DNA of 64,000 bases from Nocardioides acrostichi (GTDB lineage Bacteria > Actinomycetota > Actinomycetes > Propionibacteriales > Nocardioidaceae), in assembly GCF_015319165.1 (NCBI RefSeq), contig NZ_JADIVZ010000012.1, positions 62,001 through 126,000 on the forward strand. The letters run 5' to 3'. How positions within the stretch are numbered: position 1 is the first letter of the stretch; each line of letters begins with the position of its first letter. The notes under the pieces were generated by a model, which was not told where the DNA came from, did not search any database, and saw only the letters and a program-made list of their open reading frames with translations. Positions 9,633 through 59,223 of the stretch are shown in pieces. The translations under genes were made by a program, and so were the position numbers.

Positions 9633-11408
9633 TCAGCCGACGACCGCTCCGGCATGTGCTGGCAGCACGAGCGTGCCGCCGGCCAGGCTCGCCTCGGACC
9701 CCGACCCCGCACCGGTCACGGCCAGCAAGTCGCCCTGCACGTCGAGGACGCTCTGCTCCGTCTCGCCGAGGTTGAGGGCGACGAGCGTGCCGCCGCGCCA
9801 CAGGTGCACCAGGCGGGCGCCCTCGTCGACCGTGCAGCGATGGGCGGTCATGGCGGGGTCGGTGAGCTCCGTGCGCTCCCGGCGCAGCCGGGTCAGCGTG
9901 CGGTAGAGCAGCAGCATGCGCGCATGCCGCGACCCCGCGTGCTCCGGCTCGGCCCAGTCGAGCTTCGAGCGGGTGAACGTGTCGGGATCCTGCGGGTCGG
10001 GCACGACGGAGGGATCCCACCCCATCTTCGCGAACTCCTCGATGCGGCCCTCGGCGGTGGCCTCGCCGAGCTCGGGCTCGGGGTGGGAGGTGAAGAAGCA
10101 GAACGGTGTGCTGGCCGCCCACTCCTCGCCTTGGAACAGCATCGGGGTGAACGGCCCGAGCAGGGTGAGCATCGCCGCGCAGCCGAGCTGGTGCTCGTCG
10201 AGGTGGTCGGTGAGGCGGTCGCCGACGGCGCGGTTGCCGATCTGGTCGTGGTTCTGGCTGCACACCACCAGCCGCCAGGCCGGCATGTGCTCGACGTCGA
10301 TCGGTGACCCGTGGTCGCGCTCGCGGAAGGACGAGTAGATCCCGTCGTGGAAGAAGCCGTGCTCGACGACCTTCTTCAGCGCGGTCAACGGCTCGAAGTC
10401 GGCGTAGTAGCCGGTGGTCTCGCCGCTGAGCGCCACGTGCACGGCGTGGTGGTAGTCGTCGCTCCACGACGCGTCCAGCCCGTAGCCACCGGCCTCGCGC
10501 GGGGTGAAGAGGGTGGGGTCGTTGAGGTCGGACTCCGCGATGAGCGTGAGCGGTCGCCCCACGTGCGCCGAGCGGGCCGCCGTCTCGATCGCCATCTCCT
10601 CCAGCAGGTGGGTGGGCGAGGTGTCGGCCAGCGCGTGGACGGCGTCGAGCCGCAGCGCGTCGACGTGGTAGTCGTCGAACCACATCGCGAGGTTGTCGAG
10701 GATGTAGCGCCGCACCTCACTCGACCCCTCGCCGTCGAGGTTCACCAGGTCTCCCCAGGTGTTGCGGCCGGTCGTCAGGTACGGCCCGAACAGCGGCAGG
10801 TAGTTGCCCGACGGGCCGAGGTGGTTGTAGACGACGTCCTGCACGACGCCGAGGCCCCGGGCGTGGCAGGCGTCGACGAAGCGCTGGTAGGCGCGCGGAC
10901 CGCCGTAGGTCTCCTGGACCGCGAACCACGCCACGCCGTCGTAGCCCCAGTTGTGGGTGCCGTTGAACGCGTTGACCGGCAGCACCTCGACCAGGTCGAT
11001 GCCGAGGTCGACGAGATGGTCGAGTCGCTCGATCGCGGAGTCGAGGGTGCCGCCGGGCGTGAACGTGCCGACGTGCAGCTCGTAGAGGACCGCGCCGGCG
11101 AGCTGGCGGCCGGTCCACGCGTGGTCGGTCCACGCGAAACCCGAGGGGTCGAAGGTGCGGGAGAGCTCGTGGACGTCGCCGGGTTGACACCGCGAGCGGG
11201 GGTCCGGCCGCGGTTCGGGGTCGTCGTCGAGCAGGTAGCCGTAGTCGGTGAAGGGCTCTCCAGCGGCTCGAGGCAGCGGCTCGGCCGGCGTCCACCAGCC
11301 GCCGTCGTCTCGCTCCATCTCGACGACCGTGCCGCCGGCGTTGTCGCCGCAGAGCAGCCGGACCCGCTGCGGCCGCGGTGCCCACACATCGAAGCGCCGA
11401 TCGGTCAT
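9633..11408 (-). CDS. treZ: Malto-oligosyltrehalose trehalohydrolase
   Basis: GH13 enzyme of 591 residues that hydrolyses maltooligosyl-trehalose to free trehalose and a shortened glucan, the last step of the TreXYZ route. It has an N-terminal beta-sandwich ([13 protein letters not shown]), then the TIM barrel with [14 protein letters not shown], the nucleophile region [10 protein letters not shown], the acid segment LIAESDLN, and [10 protein letters not shown]. Length matches actinobacterial TreZ. The ATG at 11408 lies 1 bp after the treY stop, so the gene is translated as part of the treX-treY-treZ transcript. Confidence 0.95.
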
Positions 11409-11409
11409 G

Positions 11410-13977
11410 TCAGTCCTCCTCCACGAGCAGCGCGACCGGATGGTCGGCCAGGACGTCGGCGACGTCAGCGGGGCCGGTGTGCCCCCGCCCGGTCAGGGCA
11501 TCGCGCCACCGACCGGGCGGGAGGTCCAGGTGGGTGCCGCCCCAGCCGCCGCGGGCGTTGAGCCCCAACGGCAACCGCGTGACGACGGTGATCGCGCCGC
11601 CCCGGTCGAAGGCCACCGCATGGTCGGCGGCCTCGCCCGTCACCCCGACGGGGTCGTACCCGGTGAACAGCTCCGGGCGGTCGCGCCGCAGCCGGAGCGC
11701 GCCCGCGGTGACACGCAACTTCGCGCCGCGCACGTCGTCGGACTCCCCGGCCAGCACTCGGGCCAGGTGCTCGAAGTCGACCGGACGCCGGTTGTCGGGG
11801 TCGACCAGCGACTGCTCGACCAGCTCCGAGCCCTGGTAGACGTCGGGCACTCCGGGCATCGTCAGCGCGAGCAGCTTCGCCGACAGCGCGTTGACCCAGC
11901 CGGGTGCCGAGACCCAGCCGAGCATCGTGTCGAGCACGTCGCGCACGCCCCGGTCGTCGAACGCCGCATCGACGGCGGAGTGCACGGCGGCCTCGAAGTC
12001 CTCCTCGGGTGCGGTCCAGGTGGTGGCCTCACCGGCCTCGCGCATCGCCTTCATGGCGTACCCGTGCAGTCGCTCGCGCAGCACGTCGTCGGGGTCGGAC
12101 CCCCAGACCCCGAGCACCGCCTGCCACAGCAGGTGGGCGAACCCGGCATCCGGGATCGGGGCAGCTGTGAGCAGCTGGTCGACGGCGTCGATCCAGTGTC
12201 TCGGGGTCTCGGCCAGCACATGGATGCGAGCGCGCACGTCTTCGCCGCGCTTGGTGTCGTGCGTCGAGAGCGCGGTCATGGCGTGCGGCGTCGTGGCCTG
12301 GCGATGCGCCATCGCCGCGTGGAAGCCCGCCACGTCGAGAGCGAAGTCCGACGGGTCGCCGCCGACCTCGTTGAGCGAGGTCAGACGCGAGAAGCGGTAG
12401 AAGGAGCAGTCCTCGACACCCTTGGCCATCACCATGCCCGACGTCTGCTGGAAGCGCCGGGCAGCCGGCTGCGCGGGGTCGCCGAGCACCGGCTCGAGCG
12501 CCTCGAGGGTTGCCGCGAGGTCGGGCCGGTGGGCGCGGGCCGCGGCGAAGGCCTCGTCGAGGTGCGCGCGGCCGGCGTCGGCGTCGTCCGGGCGCAGGTA
12601 GGAGCGGTACACCGGGAAGCACGCGAGCAGCTCGGCCACGGCGTCGACGGGTTTCGACACGCTCGTCGCTGGCGCTCCTCCCGGCTCAACCACCGGGGAG
12701 GCGCTCGTCGCTGGCGCTCCTCCCGGCTCAACCACCGGGGAGACGCTCGTCGCTGGCGCTCCTCCCGGCTCAACCACCGGGGAGGCGCTCGTCGCTGGCG
12801 CTCCTCCCGGCTCAACCACCGGGGAGACGCTCGTCGCTGGCGCTCCTCCCGGCTCAACCACCGGGGAGACGCTCGTCGCTGGCGCTCCTCCCGGCTCAAC
12901 CACCGGGGAGACGCTCGTCGCTGGCGCTCCTCCCGGCTCAACCACCGGGGGTGGCAGCTCACGCACGATGCGCCGCACCTCCGAGCCCAAGATCGTGTCG
13001 GCGACGTCGCGCTTGCGATCGTGGATCATCGCGTGCCAGTCCAGCGGGGCGTCGAGGCCACGCAGCCGCGACTCCAGCTCATCGAGCGGCGCCTGGCCGG
13101 CCGGGTCGACCAGCACGCGGTCGACCAGAGCGAGGGCGTCGTACCCGGTGGTGCCCTGGGTGGCCCAGGTGGTGGGCAACTCCTCTCCGGGCTCGAGGAT
13201 CTTCTCGACCAGCACGTAGGCGCCCCCGGTGACCTCGGCGAGGTCGTCGAGATAGCCGCGCGGGTCGTGGAGCCCGTCGGGGTGGTCGACCCGCAGGCCG
13301 TCGACCAGACCGTCGTCGAACCAGCGGGCGATCTCGCTGTGGGAGTCGGCGAAGACCTCCGGCAGCTCGACCTTCACCGCAGCGAGCGTGTTGACCGCGA
13401 AGAACCGGCGGTAGTTGAGCTCGTGATCGGCGCGCTGCCAACCCACCAGCTCGTAGTGCTGCTCGGCGAGGGTGGTGGTGCCCGGAGCCAACGGGAAGAC
13501 GTGCTCGTAGTAGCGCACCTCGCCGGCGTCGACGTCGACCTCGACGTCGTCGGTGGAGTCCGACCCGAGCACGGGGATGCGGATCTTGCCGTCGCCCGCG
13601 GCCCAGTCGATGTCGAAGGCGGCGGCGCGTGCTGACCCGGGGCCCATCTCGAGCAGGGTCCACCACCAGGTGTTCTGTCGAGGTGTGGCGACGCCCATGT
13701 GGTTGGGCACGATGTCGACCAGCACGCCCATGCCCAGTTCGCGGGCCCGTGTCGACACGGCCGCGAGACCCTTCGCGCCACCCCGGTCCGGGTCGACGCG
13801 GTCGTGGGCGATGACGTCGTAGCCGTGGTCGGAGCCCGGCTCGGCCTCGAGCACGGGGGAGAGGTAGACCCAGTCGGCGCCGAGATCGTGCAGGTAGTCG
13901 AGGAGTTCGACCACGCGGAACAGATCCTGCGCCGCGGTCACCTGCACCCGGTAGGTCGAGGTGGGCACTCGGGTCAC
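11410..13977 (-). CDS. treY: Maltooligosyl trehalose synthase carrying an in-frame tandem-repeat insertion
   Basis: GH13 enzyme of 855 residues that isomerises the reducing-end alpha-1,4 bond of maltodextrins to the alpha-1,1 bond of trehalose. Seen are TSTYRVQ at the N-terminus, [28 protein letters not shown], the catalytic segment [25 protein letters not shown] and [16 protein letters not shown]. The start GTG at 13977 overlaps the treX stop (GTGA). The oddity is residues about 343-440: seven copies of a 14-residue unit [11 protein letters not shown](V/A)SP lie between RRIVRELPP and the conserved [16 protein letters not shown]. Without them the protein would be about 757 residues, near the usual length, so this is an added surface loop rather than part of the fold. 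The frame stays open, so the enzyme is probably functional. Confidence 0.95.
12659..12950. repeat. Seven-copy 42-bp tandem repeat inside treY
   Basis: Units begin at 12659, 12701, 12743, 12785, 12827, 12869 and 12911 (the last lacks two bases). They are identical except at the first base, which is A in units 1, 3, 5, 6, 7 and G in units 2 and 4; this gives Val or Ala in TreY. The unit core contains GCTCGTCGCTGGCGCTCCTC and CGGCTCAACCACCGG. The left flank, GGGTTTCGACAC, together with unit 1 resembles, from memory, the dispersed intergenic repeat (TTTCGA...CTCAACCACCGG) of Nocardioides and relatives. The period is a multiple of 3, so every frame that is open stays open. There are no spacers, so it is not a CRISPR. 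Confidence 0.97.
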
Positions 13978-16154
13978 GACTCCTGCTCCCAGGCTGCCCG
14001 AGCCGCCAACGAGGCGTCGACGGAGAGGTCGGGTGCCGGTTCGGCGTCGTGGTGCTCGACGAGCAGCAGCACCGACCGCGCCGGCAGGACGACGCCGCTG
14101 CCGGCGTCCATGGGCTTCTCGACCTCGACGGTGCCGGAGGTGTCGAGCGCGACCGTCCAGCGCTGGGCGTATTCGGCGGGCGGCAGCGTGATCGGTAGGT
14201 CGTCGCTGCCGGCGTGGGTGTAGAGCACGAAGTGGTCGTCGGTGATCTTCTCGCCGCGCAGCCCGGGACCGCGGATGCCGTCGCCGTTGAGGTACATGCC
14301 CAGCGACGACCCGCCGGCCTCCCAGTCGTCGCCCTCCATGCGGCGGCCGTCGGGGTGCAGCCACACGATGTCGTCGCTCTCGCCGGTGAAGAAGCGCTTG
14401 CGCCGGAAGGTGGGGTGCTCGGCGCGCAGGGCCGAGACGGCGGCGGTGAACTCGACCAGCGGCTCGTCGAGGCGCGACCAGTCGATCCAGGCGAGCTCGT
14501 TGTCCTGCGCGTAGGTGTTGTTGTTGCCGCCCTGACTGCGCCCGCCCTCGTCGCCGTGCAGCAGCATCGGTACGCCCTGGCTGAGCAGCAGGGTGGCCAT
14601 CAGGTTGCGCTGCATCTTCGCGCGCTCGCGCAGCACGCCCGCGTCGTCGGTCGGCCCTTCGACGCCGAAGTTCTGCGAGCGGTTGTGGCTCTCGCCGTCG
14701 TTGCCGTCCTCGCCGTTGGCGTCGTTGTGCTTGCTCTCGTAGCTGACCAGGTCGGCCAGGGTGAACCCGTCGTGGGCGGTGACGAAGTTGATGGAGGCGA
14801 ACGGGCGGCGGCCGGACTGCTCGTAGAGGTCGGAGGAGCCCGAGAGCCGCGAGGCGAACTCGCCGAGCACCGGTTCGCCGCGCCAGAAGTCGCGCACGGT
14901 GTCGCGGTACTGGCCGTTCCACTCCGACCACTGCGGCGGGAAGTTGCCGACCTGGTAGCCACCGGGGCCGACGTCCCACGGCTCGGCGATGAGCTTGACC
15001 TGGCTGACCACGGGATCTTGCTGGCACAGCTCGAAGAACGTCGCCAGCCGGTCGACCTCGTAGAACTCGCGCGCCAGCGTCGAGGCGAGGTCGAAGCGGA
15101 ACCCGTCGACGTGCATCTCGGTGACCCAGTAGCGCAGTGAGTCCATGATCAGCTGCAGTGAGTGCGGATGCCCGACGTTGAGGCTGTTGCCGGTGCCCGT
15201 GTAGTCCATGTAGTAGCGCTGGTCCTCGGCCACGAGCTGGTAGTACGCGGGGTTGTCGATGCCCTTGAACGACAGCATCGGGCCGAGGTGATTGCCCTCG
15301 GCGGTGTGGTTGTAGACGACGTCGAGGATCACCTCGATGCCGGCCTCGTGCAGTTGCTTGACCATCGCCTTGAACTCCTGCACCTGCTGGCCGCGGCCAG
15401 CCTCGGTGCGGCCGGCGGCGGAGTAGGCGGCGTGCGGGGCGAAGAAGGCCAGCGTGTTGTAGCCCCAGTAGTTGGAGAGGCCCTTGTCGAGGAGCGTGGA
15501 GTCCTGCACGAACTGGTGCACGGGCATCAGCTCGATCGCGCTGACGCCCAGCTTGGTCAGGTGCTCGACGATCGCCGGGTGGGCGAGCCCGGCGTAGGTG
15601 CCGCGCAGCTCCTCGGGCACGTCAGCGTGGGTCATCGTGAGACCCTTGACGTGCGCCTCGTAGACGACGGTGTCGTTGTAGGCCGTGCCCGGTGAGCGGT
15701 CGCCCTCCCAGTCGAAGAACGGGTTGATCACCACGCCCAGGGTCATGTGCGACGCGGAGTCGTCGTCATTGCGGGAGTCCTCGTCGCCGAAGTGGTAGCC
15801 GAAGAGGCTCTCGTCCCAGTCGATGTCGCGGGTGGTGGCCTTGGCGTAGGGGTCGAGCAGCAGTTTGTGAGGATTGCACCGCTGGCCGTGCTCGGGTGCC
15901 CACGGGCCGTGCACGCGATAGCCGTAGCGCTGGCCGGGCTGCACGTGCGGCAGATAGCAGTGCCACACGTGGGCGTCGATCTCGGTGAGCTCGACCCGGG
16001 TCTCGGTCAGGGCCTCGGAGTCGGGGGCGGCGTCCGGCTCGTCGAAGAGGCACAGCTCGACCCGCTCGGCGACCTCGCTGAACAGGGCGAAGTTGGTGCC
16101 GGTGCCGTCGAACGTCGCACCCAGCGGGTAGGCGGTGCCGGGCCAGATCTCCAT
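13974..16154 (-). CDS. treX: Glycogen debranching enzyme (isoamylase type)
   Basis: GH13 debranching enzyme (also named glgX) of 726 residues that cleaves alpha-1,6 branches to give linear glucans for TreY. Visible are the N-terminal CBM48-like domain (GTGTNFALFSEVAERVELCL), YEAHVKGLT, YNHTAEGNH, the nucleophile region HVDGFRFDLAS, LIAEPWDVGPGGYQVG and FVTAHDGFTLADLVSY. I start at ATG 16154 (MEIWPGTAYPLG), which has a good GGAGG seven bases upstream; the frame to 16199 is open but poorly supported. First gene of the treX-treY-treZ operon, overlapping treY by 4 bp; divergent from the acyl-CoA dehydrogenase. Confidence 0.95.
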   Translation of the reverse strand: MEIWPGTAYPLGATFDGTGTNFALFSEVAERVELCLFDEPDAAPDSEALTETRVELTEIDAHVWHCYLPHVQPGQRYGYRVHGPWAPEHGQRCNPHKLLLDPYAKATTRDIDWDESLFGYHFGDEDSRNDDDSASHMTLGVVINPFFDWEGDRSPGTAYNDTVVYEAHVKGLTMTHADVPEELRGTYAGLAHPAIVEHLTKLGVSAIELMPVHQFVQDSTLLDKGLSNYWGYNTLAFFAPHAAYSAAGRTEAGRGQQVQEFKAMVKQLHEAGIEVILDVVYNHTAEGNHLGPMLSFKGIDNPAYYQLVAEDQRYYMDYTGTGNSLNVGHPHSLQLIMDSLRYWVTEMHVDGFRFDLASTLAREFYEVDRLATFFELCQQDPVVSQVKLIAEPWDVGPGGYQVGNFPPQWSEWNGQYRDTVRDFWRGEPVLGEFASRLSGSSDLYEQSGRRPFASINFVTAHDGFTLADLVSYESKHNDANGEDGNDGESHNRSQNFGVEGPTDDAGVLRERAKMQRNLMATLLLSQGVPMLLHGDEGGRSQGGNNNTYAQDNELAWIDWSRLDEPLVEFTAAVSALRAEHPTFRRKRFFTGESDDIVWLHPDGRRMEGDDWEAGGSSLGMYLNGDGIRGPGLRGEKITDDHFVLYTHAGSDDLPITLPPAEYAQRWTVALDTSGTVEVEKPMDAGSGVVLPARSVLLLVEHHDAEPAPDLSVDASLAARAAWEQES

Positions 16155-16279
16155 GGGGTTCCTCCACTGCAACCGTCGAGACGCACTGGAACGATCCAAC
16201 CAGCCGTGAGCGAAGCGGCGCTCACCCGCTCGGAGGCGCTACTGGCCCCGAGCCCTACTCGTCGGTAATATCTGCCCTC

Positions 16280-31475: not shown

Positions 31476-32840
31476 GTGGGCAGCTACAACAAGAAGATCG
31501 CGATGACCGCGGTCGTCGGAGTCGCGGGCCTCGCCCTGGCCGGCTGCGCCGGCGCCGGCGGCGGCGGTGGAGGGAGCAGCTCGGACGGCGGCGGTGGCGC
31601 CGTCACCGTGCTCATGGTGGGCAACCCGCAGATGGAGGACATCGAGAAGCTGACCAAGGACACCTTCACCAAGGACACCGGCATCGAGGTCGACTACACG
31701 ATCCTTCCGGAGAACGAGCTGCGCGACAAGGTGACCCAGGACGTCGCCACCGGTGCCGGCCAGTACGACGTCGTCTCCGTGGGCGCCTACGAGGTGCCGA
31801 TCTGGGCCAAGAACGACTGGCTCCAGCCGCTCGACGACTACGTGGACGACGACGCCGACTACGACGCCGCCGACCTGCTGGACCCGATGAAGGAGTCCCT
31901 CTCCTCCGACGGTCAGCTCTACGCCCTGCCGTTCTACGGCGAGTCGTCCTTCCTCATGTACCGCAAGGACGTGCTGAAGCAGGAGGGCCTCACCATGCCG
32001 GAGAAGCCCACCTGGGACGAGGTCGCCGACATCGCGGCCAAGGTCGACGGCGCCGAGCCGGGCATGAAGGGCATCTGCCTGCGCGGCCTGCCGGGCTGGG
32101 GCGAGATGTTCGCCCCGCTCACGACGGTGGTCAACACCTTCGGCGGCACCTGGTTCGACGAGGACTGGACCCCCGAGGTCGACAGCCCCGAGTTCACCGA
32201 CGCGGTCGACTTCTACGTGAACCTGATCAAGCAGCACGGTGAGCCCGGCGCCTCGCAGGCCGGCTTCACGGAGTGCCTGAACGCCATGAGCCAGGGCAAG
32301 GTCGCCATGTGGTACGACGCCACATCGGCCGCCGGCTCGCTCGAGGACTCCTCGGTCTCCAAGGTGGCCGGCAAGGTGGGCTACGCCTACGCACCGGTCA
32401 AGGAGACCGACTCCTCGGGCTGGCTGTGGACCTGGTCGTGGGCCATGCCCGCCGACACCGACAACAAGGACAACGCCGCCGAGTTCATGAAGTGGGCGAC
32501 CTCGAAGCAGTACGAGCAGACCGTGGGCGAGCAGTTGGGCTGGTCGCGCGTGCCGGCCGGGAAGCGGGCCAGCACCTACGAGATCCCCGAGTACGAGAAG
32601 GCGGCCGGCGACTTCGGCCCGCTGACCCTCGCCTCCATCGAGGCGGCCGACCCGACCGACCCGGGCGTCCAGCCCCGGCCGACCGTGGGCGTGCAGTTCG
32701 TCGGCATCCCCGAGTTCGCCGACCTGGGCACCAAGGTCTCGCAGTCCATCGCCGCGGTGATCGCCGGCAAGGGCTCGGTCGAGGACGCCCTGGCCCAGGG
32801 CCAGAGCGAGGCCGAGGACGTCGCCAAGAACTACCAGTGA
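31476..32840 (+). CDS. Polyol/sugar ABC transporter substrate-binding lipoprotein
   Basis: A 454-residue family-1 extracellular solute-binding protein. The signal peptide ends in a lipobox (GLALAGC), so it is anchored to the outer face of the membrane, followed by a Gly/Ser linker. The mature part has VLMVGNPQMEDIEKLTKDTF, VVSVGAYEVPIWAKNDWLQP, LYALPFYGESSFLMYRKDVL, and a C-terminal WSRVPAGKR. Similar proteins bind mannitol or sorbitol (SmoE-like). Start GTG 31476 is chosen because GGAGG lies six bases upstream; an ATG at 31464 lacks such a site. A GC-rich hairpin follows the stop and may reduce expression of the permeases relative to the binding protein. Confidence 0.92.
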   Translation: MGSYNKKIAMTAVVGVAGLALAGCAGAGGGGGGSSSDGGGGAVTVLMVGNPQMEDIEKLTKDTFTKDTGIEVDYTILPENELRDKVTQDVATGAGQYDVVSVGAYEVPIWAKNDWLQPLDDYVDDDADYDAADLLDPMKESLSSDGQLYALPFYGESSFLMYRKDVLKQEGLTMPEKPTWDEVADIAAKVDGAEPGMKGICLRGLPGWGEMFAPLTTVVNTFGGTWFDEDWTPEVDSPEFTDAVDFYVNLIKQHGEPGASQAGFTECLNAMSQGKVAMWYDATSAAGSLEDSSVSKVAGKVGYAYAPVKETDSSGWLWTWSWAMPADTDNKDNAAEFMKWATSKQYEQTVGEQLGWSRVPAGKRASTYEIPEYEKAAGDFGPLTLASIEAADPTDPGVQPRPTVGVQFVGIPEFADLGTKVSQSIAAVIAGKGSVEDALAQGQSEAEDVAKNYQ

Positions 32841-32900: not shown

Positions 32901-32955
32901 CCCAGCACGACCCCAGCACGAACCCCAGCACGACCCCAGCACGAACTCCAGCACC
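32901..32955 (+). repeat. Short direct repeats CCCAGCACGA ahead of the permease gene
   Basis: CCCAGCACGA occurs at 32901, 32912, 32924 and 32935, plus a degenerate fifth copy near 32946 (CTCCAGCACC), with period 11-12. They fill the leader between the hairpin and the first permease ribosome-binding region (GGGAGG). They are on one face of the helix and could be a protein site, or simply slippage-derived. Confidence 0.6.
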
Positions 32956-32998
32956 ACCGGCGGGGCCGATCGGCGGCCCCGTGCCTTCGGGAGGCCCC

Positions 32999-39320: not shown

Positions 39321-39410
39321 GGTGGCGTGTCCGAGCGGCCGAAGGTGCATCACTCGAAATGATGTGTGGGGTCAAACCCACCGTGGGTTCAAATCCCACC
39401 GCCACCGCCA
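39321..39410 (+). tRNA. serU: tRNA-Ser (anticodon CGA)
   Basis: Class II tRNA of 90 nt including encoded CCA. The acceptor stem GGTGGCG (39321-39327) pairs with CGCCACC (39400-39406); discriminator G at 39407; CCA at 39408-39410. The anticodon stem CATCA/TGATG encloses loop CTCGAAA, giving anticodon CGA for UCG. A long variable arm (GTGGGGTCAAACCCAC) and T-arm GTGGG-TTCAAAT-CCCAC are present. It is the junction between core DNA on the left and the accessory island on the right. The symbol follows E. coli usage for CGA serine tRNA. Confidence 0.97.
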
Positions 39411-52054: not shown

Positions 52055-52432
52055 CTAACCCTGCGAGGTCGGCCGGTCGAGGCACACGGCCACGAGCTCG
52101 CCGGGCGCGTCGCCGTTCTGGGCGGCCCAGCCGCGATCGAACGACACCAGCTCGAGGTGACCCTCCGGGGTGCGCAGCAGCGCGGACGCCGGGATAGCGG
52201 TGTCGCCGAACCCGCTGGTGGAGCATTGGTGCTGCCCCATGAGGCGCACCAACGCCGGATCCACCTTCTGCACCGGGGTGGGTGTCGCGCTGGGGGCGGC
52301 GGTGGTCGTGCCACCGAGGGCGTTGAACGAGGCCGTGACGGCGACGACGGCGAACACGGCGCCGACGATGAACGCCTTGACCAGGCCGAGGATCCGCAGC
52401 GACTGCCGGCGGTCGGGGAGGGTGACGTCCAT
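52055..52432 (-). CDS. Membrane-anchored hypothetical protein
   Basis: A 125-residue protein with a short cytoplasmic N-terminus (MDVTLPDRRQSLRIL), one TM at about 17-38 (LVKAFIVGAVFAVVAVTASF), a Thr/Pro/Ala linker, and a small extracytoplasmic domain (VRLMGQHQCSTSGFGDTAIP, ELVSFDRGWAAQNGDAPGEL, VAVCLDR) with two Cys that could form a disulfide. ATG 52432. No known family; convergent with the sortase gene and divergent from the MoxR gene. Confidence 0.6.
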   Translation of the reverse strand: MDVTLPDRRQSLRILGLVKAFIVGAVFAVVAVTASFNALGGTTTAAPSATPTPVQKVDPALVRLMGQHQCSTSGFGDTAIPASALLRTPEGHLELVSFDRGWAAQNGDAPGELVAVCLDRPTSQG

Positions 52433-56348: not shown

Positions 56349-56493
56349 GGTGGCCTCCGGGTGGGTTCGTACCCGGAGCGTGCGAGAGGGCGGGAGGCGT
56401 GTCAACGGCCGCGCTCCGTTCCTGTGGACGACCGCCTGCGTCGACTGCGCCGTCGGGTCAGCCGTCGGGCCAGTCGTCGGGTCAGCCGTCGGG

Positions 56494-57705
56494 TCAGCCG
56501 GTGAGCAGCGGGGCCATCCGGGCGAGCCCGGTGGCCACGTCGTCGAGGGAGCCGGCGAAGCTGAACCGCAGGAACCGGCCGCCGTCGAGGGTGTCGAAGT
56601 CGATGCCCGGGGCGGTGGCGACCCCGGTCTCGGCGAGCAGCCGGTGTGCGAGGGCCATGGTGTCGGGAGCGACGCCGGCGTCGATGACGTGACCGACGTC
56701 GGCGTAGGCGTAGAAGGCGCCGTCGGCCGGTGCCAGTCGAGTCAGGCCGAGCTCGCCGAGGCCCTCGAGCAGCAGCCGCCGATTCGCGGCGTACCGCACC
56801 ACGTGGGAGTCCAGCTCGGCATAGGTCTCGTCGTCGAACGCGGCCAGGCAGGCGCGCTGGGCGAGCACCGGCGGGCAGATCGTGAAGTTGCCGGTGAGTA
56901 CGTCGACGGCCCGGCGCAGCCTCGCCGGCACCAGCATCCAGCCGATCCGCCAGCCGGTCATCGAGAAGTACTTGCTGAACGAGGCGAACACGACCGCCTC
57001 GCGGCTGGTCTCCCAGGCCGAGCGGGCCAGCCGTGGCTCGCCGTCGAGCGGCGCGAACTCGATGCCGTGGTAGATCTCGTCGCTGATCAGCTGCACGTCG
57101 TGCTGCTCGCACCAGCGCGCCAGACCCGCGAGCTCTTGGGGCATGAGCATGGTGCCGGTCGGGTTGGCCGGGCTCGCCACCACCAGGCCTCGGATGCCTC
57201 CGGTGGCCGCATGCACCTCGTCGAGCTGCTCGAGCGTGGGCTGGAACCGGTTCTCCGGACCCGTGGGGATCTCCACCACCTCGCACCCGAGCGCCGTGAG
57301 CACGTTGCGGTAGCAGGGATAGCCGGGCCGGGCGATGGCGACCCGGTCGCCCACCTCGAAGGCCGCGAGGAACGCGAGCAGGAAGCCGCCGCTGCTGCCG
57401 GTGGTGACGACCACGTCGTCGGCGTCGACCTCGATGCCGTAGGTGCGCCGATGGTGGCCCGCGATCTGCTCGCGCAGCTCGACGATGCCGGTGGCCGGGG
57501 TGTACCCGAGCGGGTCGCCGGAACGGAGCAGTCGTACCGCCTCGGCCGCCACCGGTGCGGGAGCGCCCGTGCTCGGCTGACCCGCGACGAGGTTGACCAG
57601 GTCGCCGTGGGTGCGCTGGCGCCGTCCGGCCGCTTCGAGGATGTCCATCACGTGGAACGGCGGCACGTTCGCGCGGCTGGCCGCGAGCCAGCGGGGGTCG
57701 GTCAT
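56494..57705 (-). CDS. Pyridoxal-phosphate-dependent aminotransferase (class I/II)
   Basis: A 403-residue fold type I aminotransferase. Seen are HVMDILEAAGRRQRTHGDLV, NLVAGQPSTGAP, PLGYTPATGIVELREQIAGH, TTGSSGGFLLAFLAAFEVGD (phosphate cup), SPANPTGTMLMPQEL (Asn contacting PLP), LISDEIYHGIEF (Asp), and FSKYFSMTGWRIGWMLVP with the Schiff-base Lys in S-F-S-K. Substrate not predictable, aspartate/aromatic or alanine type; actinobacterial homologues are common. Start ATG 57705. It is downstream of the FAD dehydrogenase in the same direction (25 bp). Confidence 0.93.
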   Translation of the reverse strand: MTDPRWLAASRANVPPFHVMDILEAAGRRQRTHGDLVNLVAGQPSTGAPAPVAAEAVRLLRSGDPLGYTPATGIVELREQIAGHHRRTYGIEVDADDVVVTTGSSGGFLLAFLAAFEVGDRVAIARPGYPCYRNVLTALGCEVVEIPTGPENRFQPTLEQLDEVHAATGGIRGLVVASPANPTGTMLMPQELAGLARWCEQHDVQLISDEIYHGIEFAPLDGEPRLARSAWETSREAVVFASFSKYFSMTGWRIGWMLVPARLRRAVDVLTGNFTICPPVLAQRACLAAFDDETYAELDSHVVRYAANRRLLLEGLGELGLTRLAPADGAFYAYADVGHVIDAGVAPDTMALAHRLLAETGVATAPGIDFDTLDGGRFLRFSFAGSLDDVATGLARMAPLLTG

Positions 57706-57729: not shown

Positions 57730-59223
57730 TCACGAGGCGGACGCCGCCGCTCCCGCCGCTGCTCGGGCCGCGGCGTGCGAGCCGGCGCGGCGTCCGAAGA
57801 AGGAGCCCTCGCCGAGCTGGGTGCCCGAGCAATAGCTCTGACCGTCGACGGCGATGTTGGCCGCGCAGGCGCCCGCGGCGTAGAGACCGCGCACCACCGA
57901 GCCGTCGGCGCGCAGCGCCTCGCCGTCGACCGAGCAGGCCATGCCACCCAGGGTGAAGCCGGCGTACATCGCCTCACCGAGGGTCAGCGAGTACACGCCC
58001 CACGGGCCGGTGCTCTGCGGGGCCAGCCAGTCGGGGTGCTTGTGGAAGTCGGGATCCTCGCCCTGCGCCGCGTATTCGTTGTAGCGCTCGATCGTGGCGA
58101 CGAGCTTGCCCTCGGGCATGCCGAGCGCGGCCTCCATCTCCTCCAGCGTCTCGTAGCCGTCGACGAACTTCACCAGGGGCATCGTCTGCTCCTCCATGTG
58201 CTCGGAGTCGGCGATGAGGTAGGCGGCGGAGTCGCGCTGCTGCATGACGTAGTAGGAGGTGCGCGCGTGGTAGGAGTCCTCGGCGACGAACCGCTCGGCG
58301 TCCTTATTGACCACCAGGGCTTTGACGAAGGACGACGGCGGGTAGAACGGCGCGGTGATGAACGGCTCGCTCATGTGCTTGAGCTCGACCCCGACCGACT
58401 CGCCCAGGCGCAGGCCCAGCCCGTCGTCGTAGGTGGAGCCGAGGGTGAAGAGGTTCTGCGCCAGCGCCGGGGTGTACTCGGCGACCATGTCGGGGTTCAT
58501 GACGAACCCACCGGCCGCGACCACCACCGCCGGGGTGGCCACGACGCCCGTCTCGCCGAACCTCTTCCAGGCCACGCCCACGACATCGCCGTTCTCGTCG
58601 GTGACGAGGTTGGTGGCGCCGGTCTCGTAGCGCACCTCGACGCCGGCCTCCTCGCAGCGGTCGCGCAGCAGGTCCATCACCATCGAGGCGCCCTGGGTGT
58701 CGCCGGGCACCGGCACCTTGTGACCGCGCGGCGCGGGCACGGCCTGGTCGCGGTAGGGGTGCACCTTCTCGTTGCCGGTGAACATCAGCCCCTGGGTCTG
58801 TGGCTGGATCACGGCCTTGCCGGGGAAGTAGGAGCGCTCGAACTCGAACCCGAGGCTCTCGACCCACTCGAAGTGCTCGACGCTGCCCTCGCAGTAGGCC
58901 CGGATCTTGTCGTGCTCGGGGTAGCGGGAGTTGGCGACGATGTACTTGTACATCTCCTCGGCGCTGTCGTCGTGACCGGTCGCCCGCTGCACCGCGGTGC
59001 CGCCGCCGAGGTAGAAGTGGCCGCCGGCCATGCACGTGGTACCGCCGTGCACGGCCGCCCGCTCGAGCAGCAGCGTGCGGGCACCCGCCCGGGCCGCCTC
59101 CAGAGCCGCGCAGCCGCCGGCGATGCCGAAACCGACGACGACGACGTCGTAGGACTCGGCCCCGTCGAGGGCGGTGGCGGGCAGGACGTCGGGCAGCACG
59201 AGGCCGGCGGGGGTGTCGCTCAT
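57730..59223 (-). CDS. FAD-dependent dehydrogenase, ketosteroid dehydrogenase/fumarate reductase-like
   Basis: A 497-residue flavoprotein. The FAD site is YDVVVVGFGIAGGCAALEAA (G-x-G-x-x-G), LLLERAAVHGGTTCMAGGHF, with the late FAD block GLYAAGACAANIAVDGQSYC. The middle domain has YEQ-like capping residues (PFYPPSSFVKALVVNKDAER). It belongs with 3-ketosteroid and related dehydrogenases. A KstR-type operator lies 11 bp before the start ATG at 59223, which links it to steroid (cholesterol) degradation; this regulation is the main reason for favouring a steroid substrate. It is not a proven KstD, since I see no full Tyr-x-Tyr pair with certainty. Confidence 0.85.
   Translation of the reverse strand: MSDTPAGLVLPDVLPATALDGAESYDVVVVGFGIAGGCAALEAARAGARTLLLERAAVHGGTTCMAGGHFYLGGGTAVQRATGHDDSAEEMYKYIVANSRYPEHDKIRAYCEGSVEHFEWVESLGFEFERSYFPGKAVIQPQTQGLMFTGNEKVHPYRDQAVPAPRGHKVPVPGDTQGASMVMDLLRDRCEEAGVEVRYETGATNLVTDENGDVVGVAWKRFGETGVVATPAVVVAAGGFVMNPDMVAEYTPALAQNLFTLGSTYDDGLGLRLGESVGVELKHMSEPFITAPFYPPSSFVKALVVNKDAERFVAEDSYHARTSYYVMQQRDSAAYLIADSEHMEEQTMPLVKFVDGYETLEEMEAALGMPEGKLVATIERYNEYAAQGEDPDFHKHPDWLAPQSTGPWGVYSLTLGEAMYAGFTLGGMACSVDGEALRADGSVVRGLYAAGACAANIAVDGQSYCSGTQLGEGSFFGRRAGSHAAARAAAGAAASAS

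Follow-up and report, generated by a model that had tools for sequence, protein, structure and literature searches.

Short dispersed repeats lying in frame within protein-coding genes are already known from Rickettsia and other Gram-negative bacteria. Background on the Rickettsia palindromic elements (RPEs) is given in the available passages of PMC3733652. These passages also treat REPtrons and repetitive extragenic palindromes (REPs) inside open reading frames (ORFs), such as those that two Xanthomonas carry at roughly the same position of recB; they contain no match to "actinobacteri". Members of the 13E12 family of M. tuberculosis are described, in a passage of PMC5005354, as belonging to the LexA regulon and having characteristics of mobile elements, and a passage of PMC10589994 treats REP13E12, HNH and DUF222 sequences as repetitive DNA. 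Here we compare with these systems a tandem array of repeats in the treY gene of Nocardioides acrostichi. The analysed sequence, called the window below, is a stretch of 64,000 nucleotides (assembly GCF_015319165.1, contig NZ_JADIVZ010000012.1, positions 62,001 to 126,000, forward strand) of a 4.33-Mb draft genome in 32 contigs, and the copy number of the array is that of the draft assembly. The features at issue are the following.

Window 11410..13977, minus strand: treY, maltooligosyl trehalose synthase, 855 aa, GTG start (translation, TIGR02401).
Window 12659..12950, minus strand: in-frame tandem array in treY, 7.0 units of 42 bp (14 codons), residues 344-441.
Window 12650..12696, plus strand: complete two-ended element in the array, GGTTTCGA...TCAACCACCGG on the plus strand, the last unit in coding order.
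Window 12697..12950, minus strand: six truncated 42-bp units without the TCGAAACC end.

Tandem Repeats Finder reports period 42, 7.0 copies and 98% matches at 12659-12950. In the treY frame the array reads as seven 14-residue units, each ending in (V/A)S. The frame at 11410-13977 has no internal stops, and its product is identified as TreY by a TIGR02401 score of 813.6 bits (cut-off 498.65). The phmmer alignment to the maltooligosyl trehalose synthase of Arthrobacter ramosus (6lcv) is interrupted at query positions 342/444. A preliminary description of the window, made from the sequence alone, had reported seven near-identical units in frame, adding about 98 residues to a protein of about 757. 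These figures stand (855 - 98 = 757), and the position of the array is corrected from residues 343-440 to 344-441.

In coding-strand order, six truncated units come first and one complete two-ended element (GGTGGTTGAG...GTGTCGAAACC) stands last; this element is also found by the two-ended pattern in the genome (match C4:74652-74694). The arrangement points to the arrival of a single element that was later duplicated on one side. The complete element is probably the founding copy, and the truncated units, judging from the missing TCGAAACC end, would be tandem duplications. Thus growth of the array from one complete copy is likely.

The unit belongs to a family dispersed through the genome. A 401-bp query gave 144 matches at E <= 1e-3, and the pattern TTTCGACACN{5,30}CTCAACCACC has 124 matches, the reversed-pattern control having none; chance origin of the array is therefore excluded. 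The looser pattern TTTCGAN{4,34}TCAACCA occurs in 279 two-ended copies (reversed control 0). Of 157 genomes of the genus, 133 contain this pattern, and the genome analysed here ranks second to G080 (327 copies). The ends of the family are conserved (GGTT-TC-GA ... TC-AACC), the interiors are variable and differ between species, and the two-ended units are 27-43 bp long. One more match to the looser pattern lies outside treY at window position 464. Intergenic clusters with alternating plus and minus copies were seen at six loci (L009, L024, L027, L037, L043, L046), that of L027 having 12 copies in -+-+ order; they resemble mosaics of the bacterial interspersed mosaic element type.

Folding was scored for 93 of the 94 distinct elements from the examined loci against core-shuffled versions. 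The 39 elements from other species fold better than the shuffles on average (mean z -1.32, 67% below -1); in many, the outer stem has a TC bulge of two bases and a further stem lies in the interior. The 54 elements of the own genome are on average no better than shuffles (mean z +0.19), the treY copy has z -0.7, and the treY class as a strong hairpin was rejected. Rfam yielded no matches at gathering score in five repeat-holding loci (L012, L014, L041, L027, L204). The 42-bp treY unit is open in five of six frames. However, the idea that the element is shaped for openness in all frames was also rejected, as 100 distinct elements have 4.26 open frames on average versus 4.67 in shuffles; this suggests that maintenance of the frame is due to the host protein and is no property of the element.

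The loop that holds the array was read in 140 treY loci, namely 80 named records and 60 of the roughly 110 G genomes in which TreY was strongly matched, giving 112 distinct loops. Its length varies from 2 to 95 residues with mode 11 (the L120 loop is out of frame around an N), and thus the array stands in place of, or lengthens, a loop that was already there. Strict seeds (GGTTGAG, CTCAACC, GTTTCGA, TCGAAAC) were found in six of the 112 loops (L048, L080, L081, L092, L107, L119) and in none of the other 106. They number 15 per 5383 nt of loop versus 2 per 241773 nt of flanking treY, and the enrichment is still about 190-fold after removal of L048, which has the largest array. Complete two-ended elements occur in L048, L080, L092 and L107, and partial repeats in L081, L119 and, on a looser reading, L047. 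Hence the array is specific to a lineage, and the repeat does not stand at the same place and copy number in all homologues, as an ancestral domain would. Long loops of 30-60 residues without strict seeds were observed at the same spot in TreY of other families (L049, L050, L051, L052).

On a tree of 81 TreY proteins, built with the loop removed by a quick search under LG+G4, the seven strict carriers (the window and the six above) need seven changes, or eight when L047 is added, and the starred branches force at least seven of the eight. The starred partner of the window protein is L088, whose loop has no strict seeds. The tree changes cannot separate gain from loss of the loop repeats; the differing repeat sequences argue for gains. 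Independent entries into the TreY loop in different species are thus strongly supported, and the loop would be a recurrent insertion site.

The AlphaFold2 model of TreY (38-row alignment) has a mean predicted local distance difference test score (pLDDT) of 84.3 and a predicted template modelling score of 0.86. The sole segment with pLDDT below 50 is 350-438, between the helices 343-346 and 442-453, and Foldseek retrieves 6lcu/6lcv at a target TM of 0.95. D231, E258 and D574, which we take to be the catalytic residues, are invariant in the alignment. In the model, then, the fold is kept, the array alone is predicted to be disordered, and the enzyme appears to be intact.

Members of the family also occur in frame in other proteins. 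In-frame arrays were found in twelve genes of the own genome: ten DUF222-HNH genes, treY, and a gene for adenosine 5'-phosphosulfate (APS) kinase and low-molecular-weight (LMW) phosphatase. In the latter (L041) the repeats occupy the linker between the kinase (224-377) and the phosphatase (499-609). Eight loci of this type were taken from a search of 39 genomes. Both domains stand together in six, all with frame-preserving linker lengths, and five of these linkers contain the repeat vocabulary (the own L267, and L268, L270, L272, L273), the sixth (L269) having GGTCGAG seeds only. The linker repeats of L272 and L273 differ in reading frame and orientation, which argues that no particular linker peptide is kept.

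The DUF222-HNH genes of the own genome are 13 close paralogues (89-100% identity to a query of up to 284 residues) with an N-terminal DUF222-like and a C-terminal HNH-like part. In ten of them, 2 to 8 two-ended elements form an in-frame array in the linker between the two parts; L018 and L128 are array-less and L129 (C31) runs into a contig end. Disorder is predicted for the linker even in an array-less copy (265-290 below pLDDT 50). In-frame linker elements were called by eye, GGTCGAG/TCGAGACC variants included, in all copies of G123 (5/5), G147 (5/5) and G073 (3/3) and in none of G107 (0/5) and G155 (0/2). The strict pattern finds no linker element in ten copies each of G095 and G058. In G073 the repeat stands at the same linker in opposite orientations in L258/L259 versus L260, each time in frame. 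A small in-frame ATEAE minirepeat was noticed beside the captured element in the linker of L249 (G123).

Successive repeat anchors on the same strand are spaced by multiples of three in 38 of 38 intragenic versus 56 of 198 intergenic cases (Fisher p 2e-18, a value that overstates independence because the paralogues share ancestry). After reassignment of two L127 cases that fall inside a DUF222-HNH gene, the counts are 40/40 and 54/196. Since frames and orientations differ among sites, the repeat peptides are read as tolerated passengers.

Some of the DUF222-HNH genes are also bordered by the repeats. In the own genome the upstream repeat ends at 81 bp from the start codon in 12 of 13 copies, similarity of the nine compared copies ends at the stop codon, and a downstream repeat within 400 bp was found in one of 13 (L031). 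All ten copies in G095 are bordered by two repeats of opposite orientation, one 118-121 bp upstream and one 48-77 bp downstream. In G058 the upstream repeat is at 106-108 bp in eight of ten copies and at 186 and 242 bp in the other two, with no downstream repeat in the stretch examined. The density expectation within any 250 bp is 0.008 repeats for G095 and 0.002 for G058. With the looser pattern, which gives 41 matches in the 57,320 bases of L243-L262 and none on the reversed sequence, upstream repeats are at 60-70 bp in 3/3 copies of G073 and at 319-321 bp in 4/5 of G147. In G155 both copies have repeats on both sides, 64 and 93 bp upstream (starts as set) and 72-73 bp downstream. A fixed-distance upstream border thus exists in six of eight species, and borders on both sides in two (G095, G155); as copies within a genome are related, the evidence amounts to six species of eight and not to some forty events. 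The one-per-species homologues L204-L222 mostly have no strict repeat nearby. A different repeated sequence, with units containing GTCGAGKTGGGT and GGCGCGG, was seen upstream of L243-L247 in G107 and is perhaps that species' own repeat.

A box GAAC-N4-GTTC, presumably similar to the actinobacterial SOS box, stands 27 bp before the start in all 13 own copies, in 5/5 of G147 and in 4/5 of G123, the fifth being 6 bp from a mis-set start. It is absent from the ten copies of G107, G073 and G155 combined and present in seven of 39 rows of the border survey made with the strict pattern.

PF02720 (DUF222) gives a weak match in L026 (E 0.0028) and none in L014, L029, L044 and L018; it is clear in the homologue L212 (3.7e-8) and in a second subfamily of the own genome (2.4e-33):

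L012:1235-2503, L023:1245-2513 and L263-L266: second DUF222-HNH subfamily, 422-426 aa.

PF01844 (HNH) is above the cut-off in the homologues L207 and L212 (25.3 and 25.9 bits), below it in L204 and L012, and has no match in the own L018. C386, C391, H402, C427 and H431 are invariant over 22 members. The predicted structure has a mean pLDDT of 70.6 and matches nothing in the PDB at E <= 0.001, so that the fold lends no structural support to the nuclease reading. The second subfamily was considered as another bordered gene, and this is a weak candidate (two of six copies).

Genomes lacking a DUF222-HNH relative mostly have at most one strict repeat (8/10, versus 39/147 of the others; p 0.001), although many DUF222-rich genomes are repeat-poor as well. 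A comparison of PF02720 copy count with repeat number was uninformative: of the 157 genomes of the genus, 153 have the family, and 13 candidates were scored per genome for nearly all. The Y1 transposase typical of RAYTs (REP-associated tyrosine transposases) has no PF01797 matches in the own genome, while five of 14 control genomes are positive; a RAYT partner for the family was thus rejected.

Taken together, the observations are best explained by a dispersed repeat that inserted in frame in the TreY loop, expanded to seven units and is retained as an unstructured passenger, a reading to which we assign a probability of about 80%. It is virtually certain that the array lies within an open frame and that its family is dispersed through the genome; judging from the frame, it is probably translated. 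In this lineage, a repeat with the conserved ends would have landed in a loop between two helices of TreY that tolerates insertions; duplication of the 42-bp unit would then have brought it to seven copies. Selection for a working enzyme would have kept the frame, the peptide itself having no selected sequence; such neutrality is quite likely. The same family has also entered this loop in other species, as well as the linkers of APS kinase-LMW phosphatase and of DUF222-HNH proteins, which suggests that the genus has a recurrent route from repeat to protein linker. The preliminary description had likened the unit to a dispersed intergenic repeat of Nocardioides and relatives and proposed that it had moved into a housekeeping gene without breaking the frame and had multiplied there, in a loop that could be tolerated because it is flexible; the two other protein linkers, the insertions in other species and the link to DUF222-HNH genes are not part of that description. 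The core indeed has other genomic copies (144 matches, 279 two-ended copies), and the expansion in frame and the predicted disorder agree with the rest of that proposal.

An ordinary coding minisatellite, grown by slippage of a low-complexity Pro/Gly/Ala codon run in a tolerant loop with no mobile element, would account for the variable loop (2-95 residues) and for the long loops without strict seeds in the distant relatives L049, L051 and L052, and some such process is needed for the tandem growth anyway. However, the dispersal of the unit with both its ends has already largely refuted this explanation, two-ended elements of the same vocabulary in four other treY loops also speak against it, and we consider it very unlikely. 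Nor is it at all probable that the array is a selected peptide with an adaptive number of units, for instance a flexible linker tuning TreY or binding TreZ. The 98% identity of the units could reflect selection, but recent growth would explain it too, and the position within a row of trehalose-making genes has to be set against the different sequences, frames and orientations at such sites in other species, the 106 of 112 relatives' loops without a strict seed and the predicted disorder. Collapsed or joined repeats in the assembly are the least credible origin of the array or its copy number. The treY frame continues on both flanks of the array, the units differ from one another at defined sites, and in-frame arrays of the same type occur in other assemblies, although the draft has several contig ends within about 0.3 kb of repeats (C2, C3, C8, C12, C15, C23, C28 and C29, at L135, L013, L019, L022, L023, L033, L040 and L043, and C31 at L129).

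Some observations weigh against insertion and expansion of a dispersed repeat in treY as well. With so many draft contig ends close to repeats, "seven" units may be approximate. The nearest TreY found is only 72-73% identical to that of the window, and there is no near-identical sister genome, hence no strain-level comparison of empty site or copy number. No second copy of the L048 and L092 loop repeats is present in the flanking sequence examined. The treY class folds no better than chance and is among the poorest, and the elements are not more open than shuffled sequence.

As to how the family spreads, one possibility, which we hold tentatively, is that it is carried by DUF222-HNH (13E12-type) genes that have SOS-box-like promoters and repeats at their borders. 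On the same tentative footing, perhaps slightly less firm, these genes and the palindrome-ended repeats at their borders may together make up one mobile system of Actinobacteria with two parts: an HNH nuclease, induced by the SOS response, would cut or bind the repeat, copies of gene and repeat would spread by repair at repeat sites, and landings in linkers would be kept as coding sequence, TreY being one case. The alternative is that an unrelated enzyme moves the repeats and the DUF222-HNH genes only accumulate beside them, in tolerant intergenic DNA or by homing into repeats; we put this at even odds. The 279 repeats far outnumber the genes, the border is upstream only in most species (own downstream repeat in 1/13), and the own copy L128 has no such repeat. 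G107 has five genes without the family (0/5 with the looser pattern), G123 has upstream repeats in two of five copies at unlike distances (256 and 276 bp), and four of six subfamily-2 copies are without a repeat, the other two having it 35-36 bp beyond the stop codon. Among the matches listed in the open-licence literature there is no experiment on a DUF222-HNH protein, and no activity is known. These points count against a mobilising role of the genes. On the other hand, an unrelated mover would not readily account for the fixed upstream distances in the own genome, G095, G058, G073 and G147, the borders on both sides in G155 (2/2), the lack of a Y1 transposase in the own genome, or the scarcity of strict repeats where DUF222-HNH relatives are missing.

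The genes around the array-bearing treY form an intact row glgX-treY-treZ:

Window 13974..16199, minus strand: glgX, upstream neighbour, overlapping the treY start (TIGR02100, 980.8 bits).
Window 9633..11408, minus strand: treZ, downstream neighbour (TIGR02402, 716 bits).

Other short tandem repeats were reported by Tandem Repeats Finder at 32901-32958, 56449-56500, 31832-31874, 32651-32696, 39366-39401, 52338-52373 and 57888-57928; their units are unlike the treY unit.

Among the described systems, the RPEs are alike in being dispersed repeats that lie in frame inside unrelated, probably functional proteins. The repeat considered here likewise occupies many genomic places (279 copies, control 0) and several unrelated proteins (TreY, APS kinase-LMW phosphatase, DUF222-HNH). 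It differs in host bacteria and sequence, in forming tandem arrays within a gene and in having DUF222-HNH neighbours; RPEs are also longer than the 27-43 bp units found here. The preliminary description had called it the Gram-positive counterpart of the Rickettsia elements. This holds for the way it works and not for membership; the treY class has no convincing hairpin (z -0.7).

REPs are similarly short, many-copy repeats, many of them palindromic and some situated in loops or linkers of ORFs, and in REPtrons a multi-copy gene is bordered by repeats. However, no GTAG or CGTC tag is present here: on inspection of the treY element only, the complete copy is bounded by GGTTTCGA and TCAACCACC. 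A REPtron consists of a RAYT gene flanked by GTAG REPs, whereas the own genome lacks the Y1 transposase, the partner would be DUF222-HNH, and only two of eight species have the repeats on both sides of this gene. The enterobacterial RU-1/2/3 (Delihas 2007, PMC2759123) also are small repeats supplying amino-acid sequence to annotated genes, but they are MITE-like (miniature inverted-repeat transposable elements) and 103-168 bp long, and the abstract mentions neither tandem arrays nor a partner gene. With 13E12/REP13E12 the candidate partner genes would be shared, having DUF222-like and HNH-like parts, many copies and, in some species, an SOS-box-like promoter. Among the matches listed in the open-licence literature we found no description of this repeat family or its link to DUF222-HNH, nor of such repeats at the borders of 13E12/DUF222-HNH genes or in frame in their linker.

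In the present case, three kinds of site in unrelated proteins were entered repeatedly across one genus, with species-specific repeats. The differing frames, both orientations and array-less beside array-bearing paralogues make up a replicated natural experiment on dispersed DNA becoming protein. For DUF222-HNH, a family without proven function in the passages of the papers cited, the spreading of these repeats is a testable hypothesis; if it holds, the system could be described as a REPtron with an HNH enzyme at its core and would continually supply material for new protein linkers. As the end tags and the RAYT are absent, the family is not a member of REPs or REPtrons, nor is it placed among the RPEs; in its way of working it resembles the ORF insertions of RPEs and REPs and, as far as the partner gene is concerned, partly the REPtrons.

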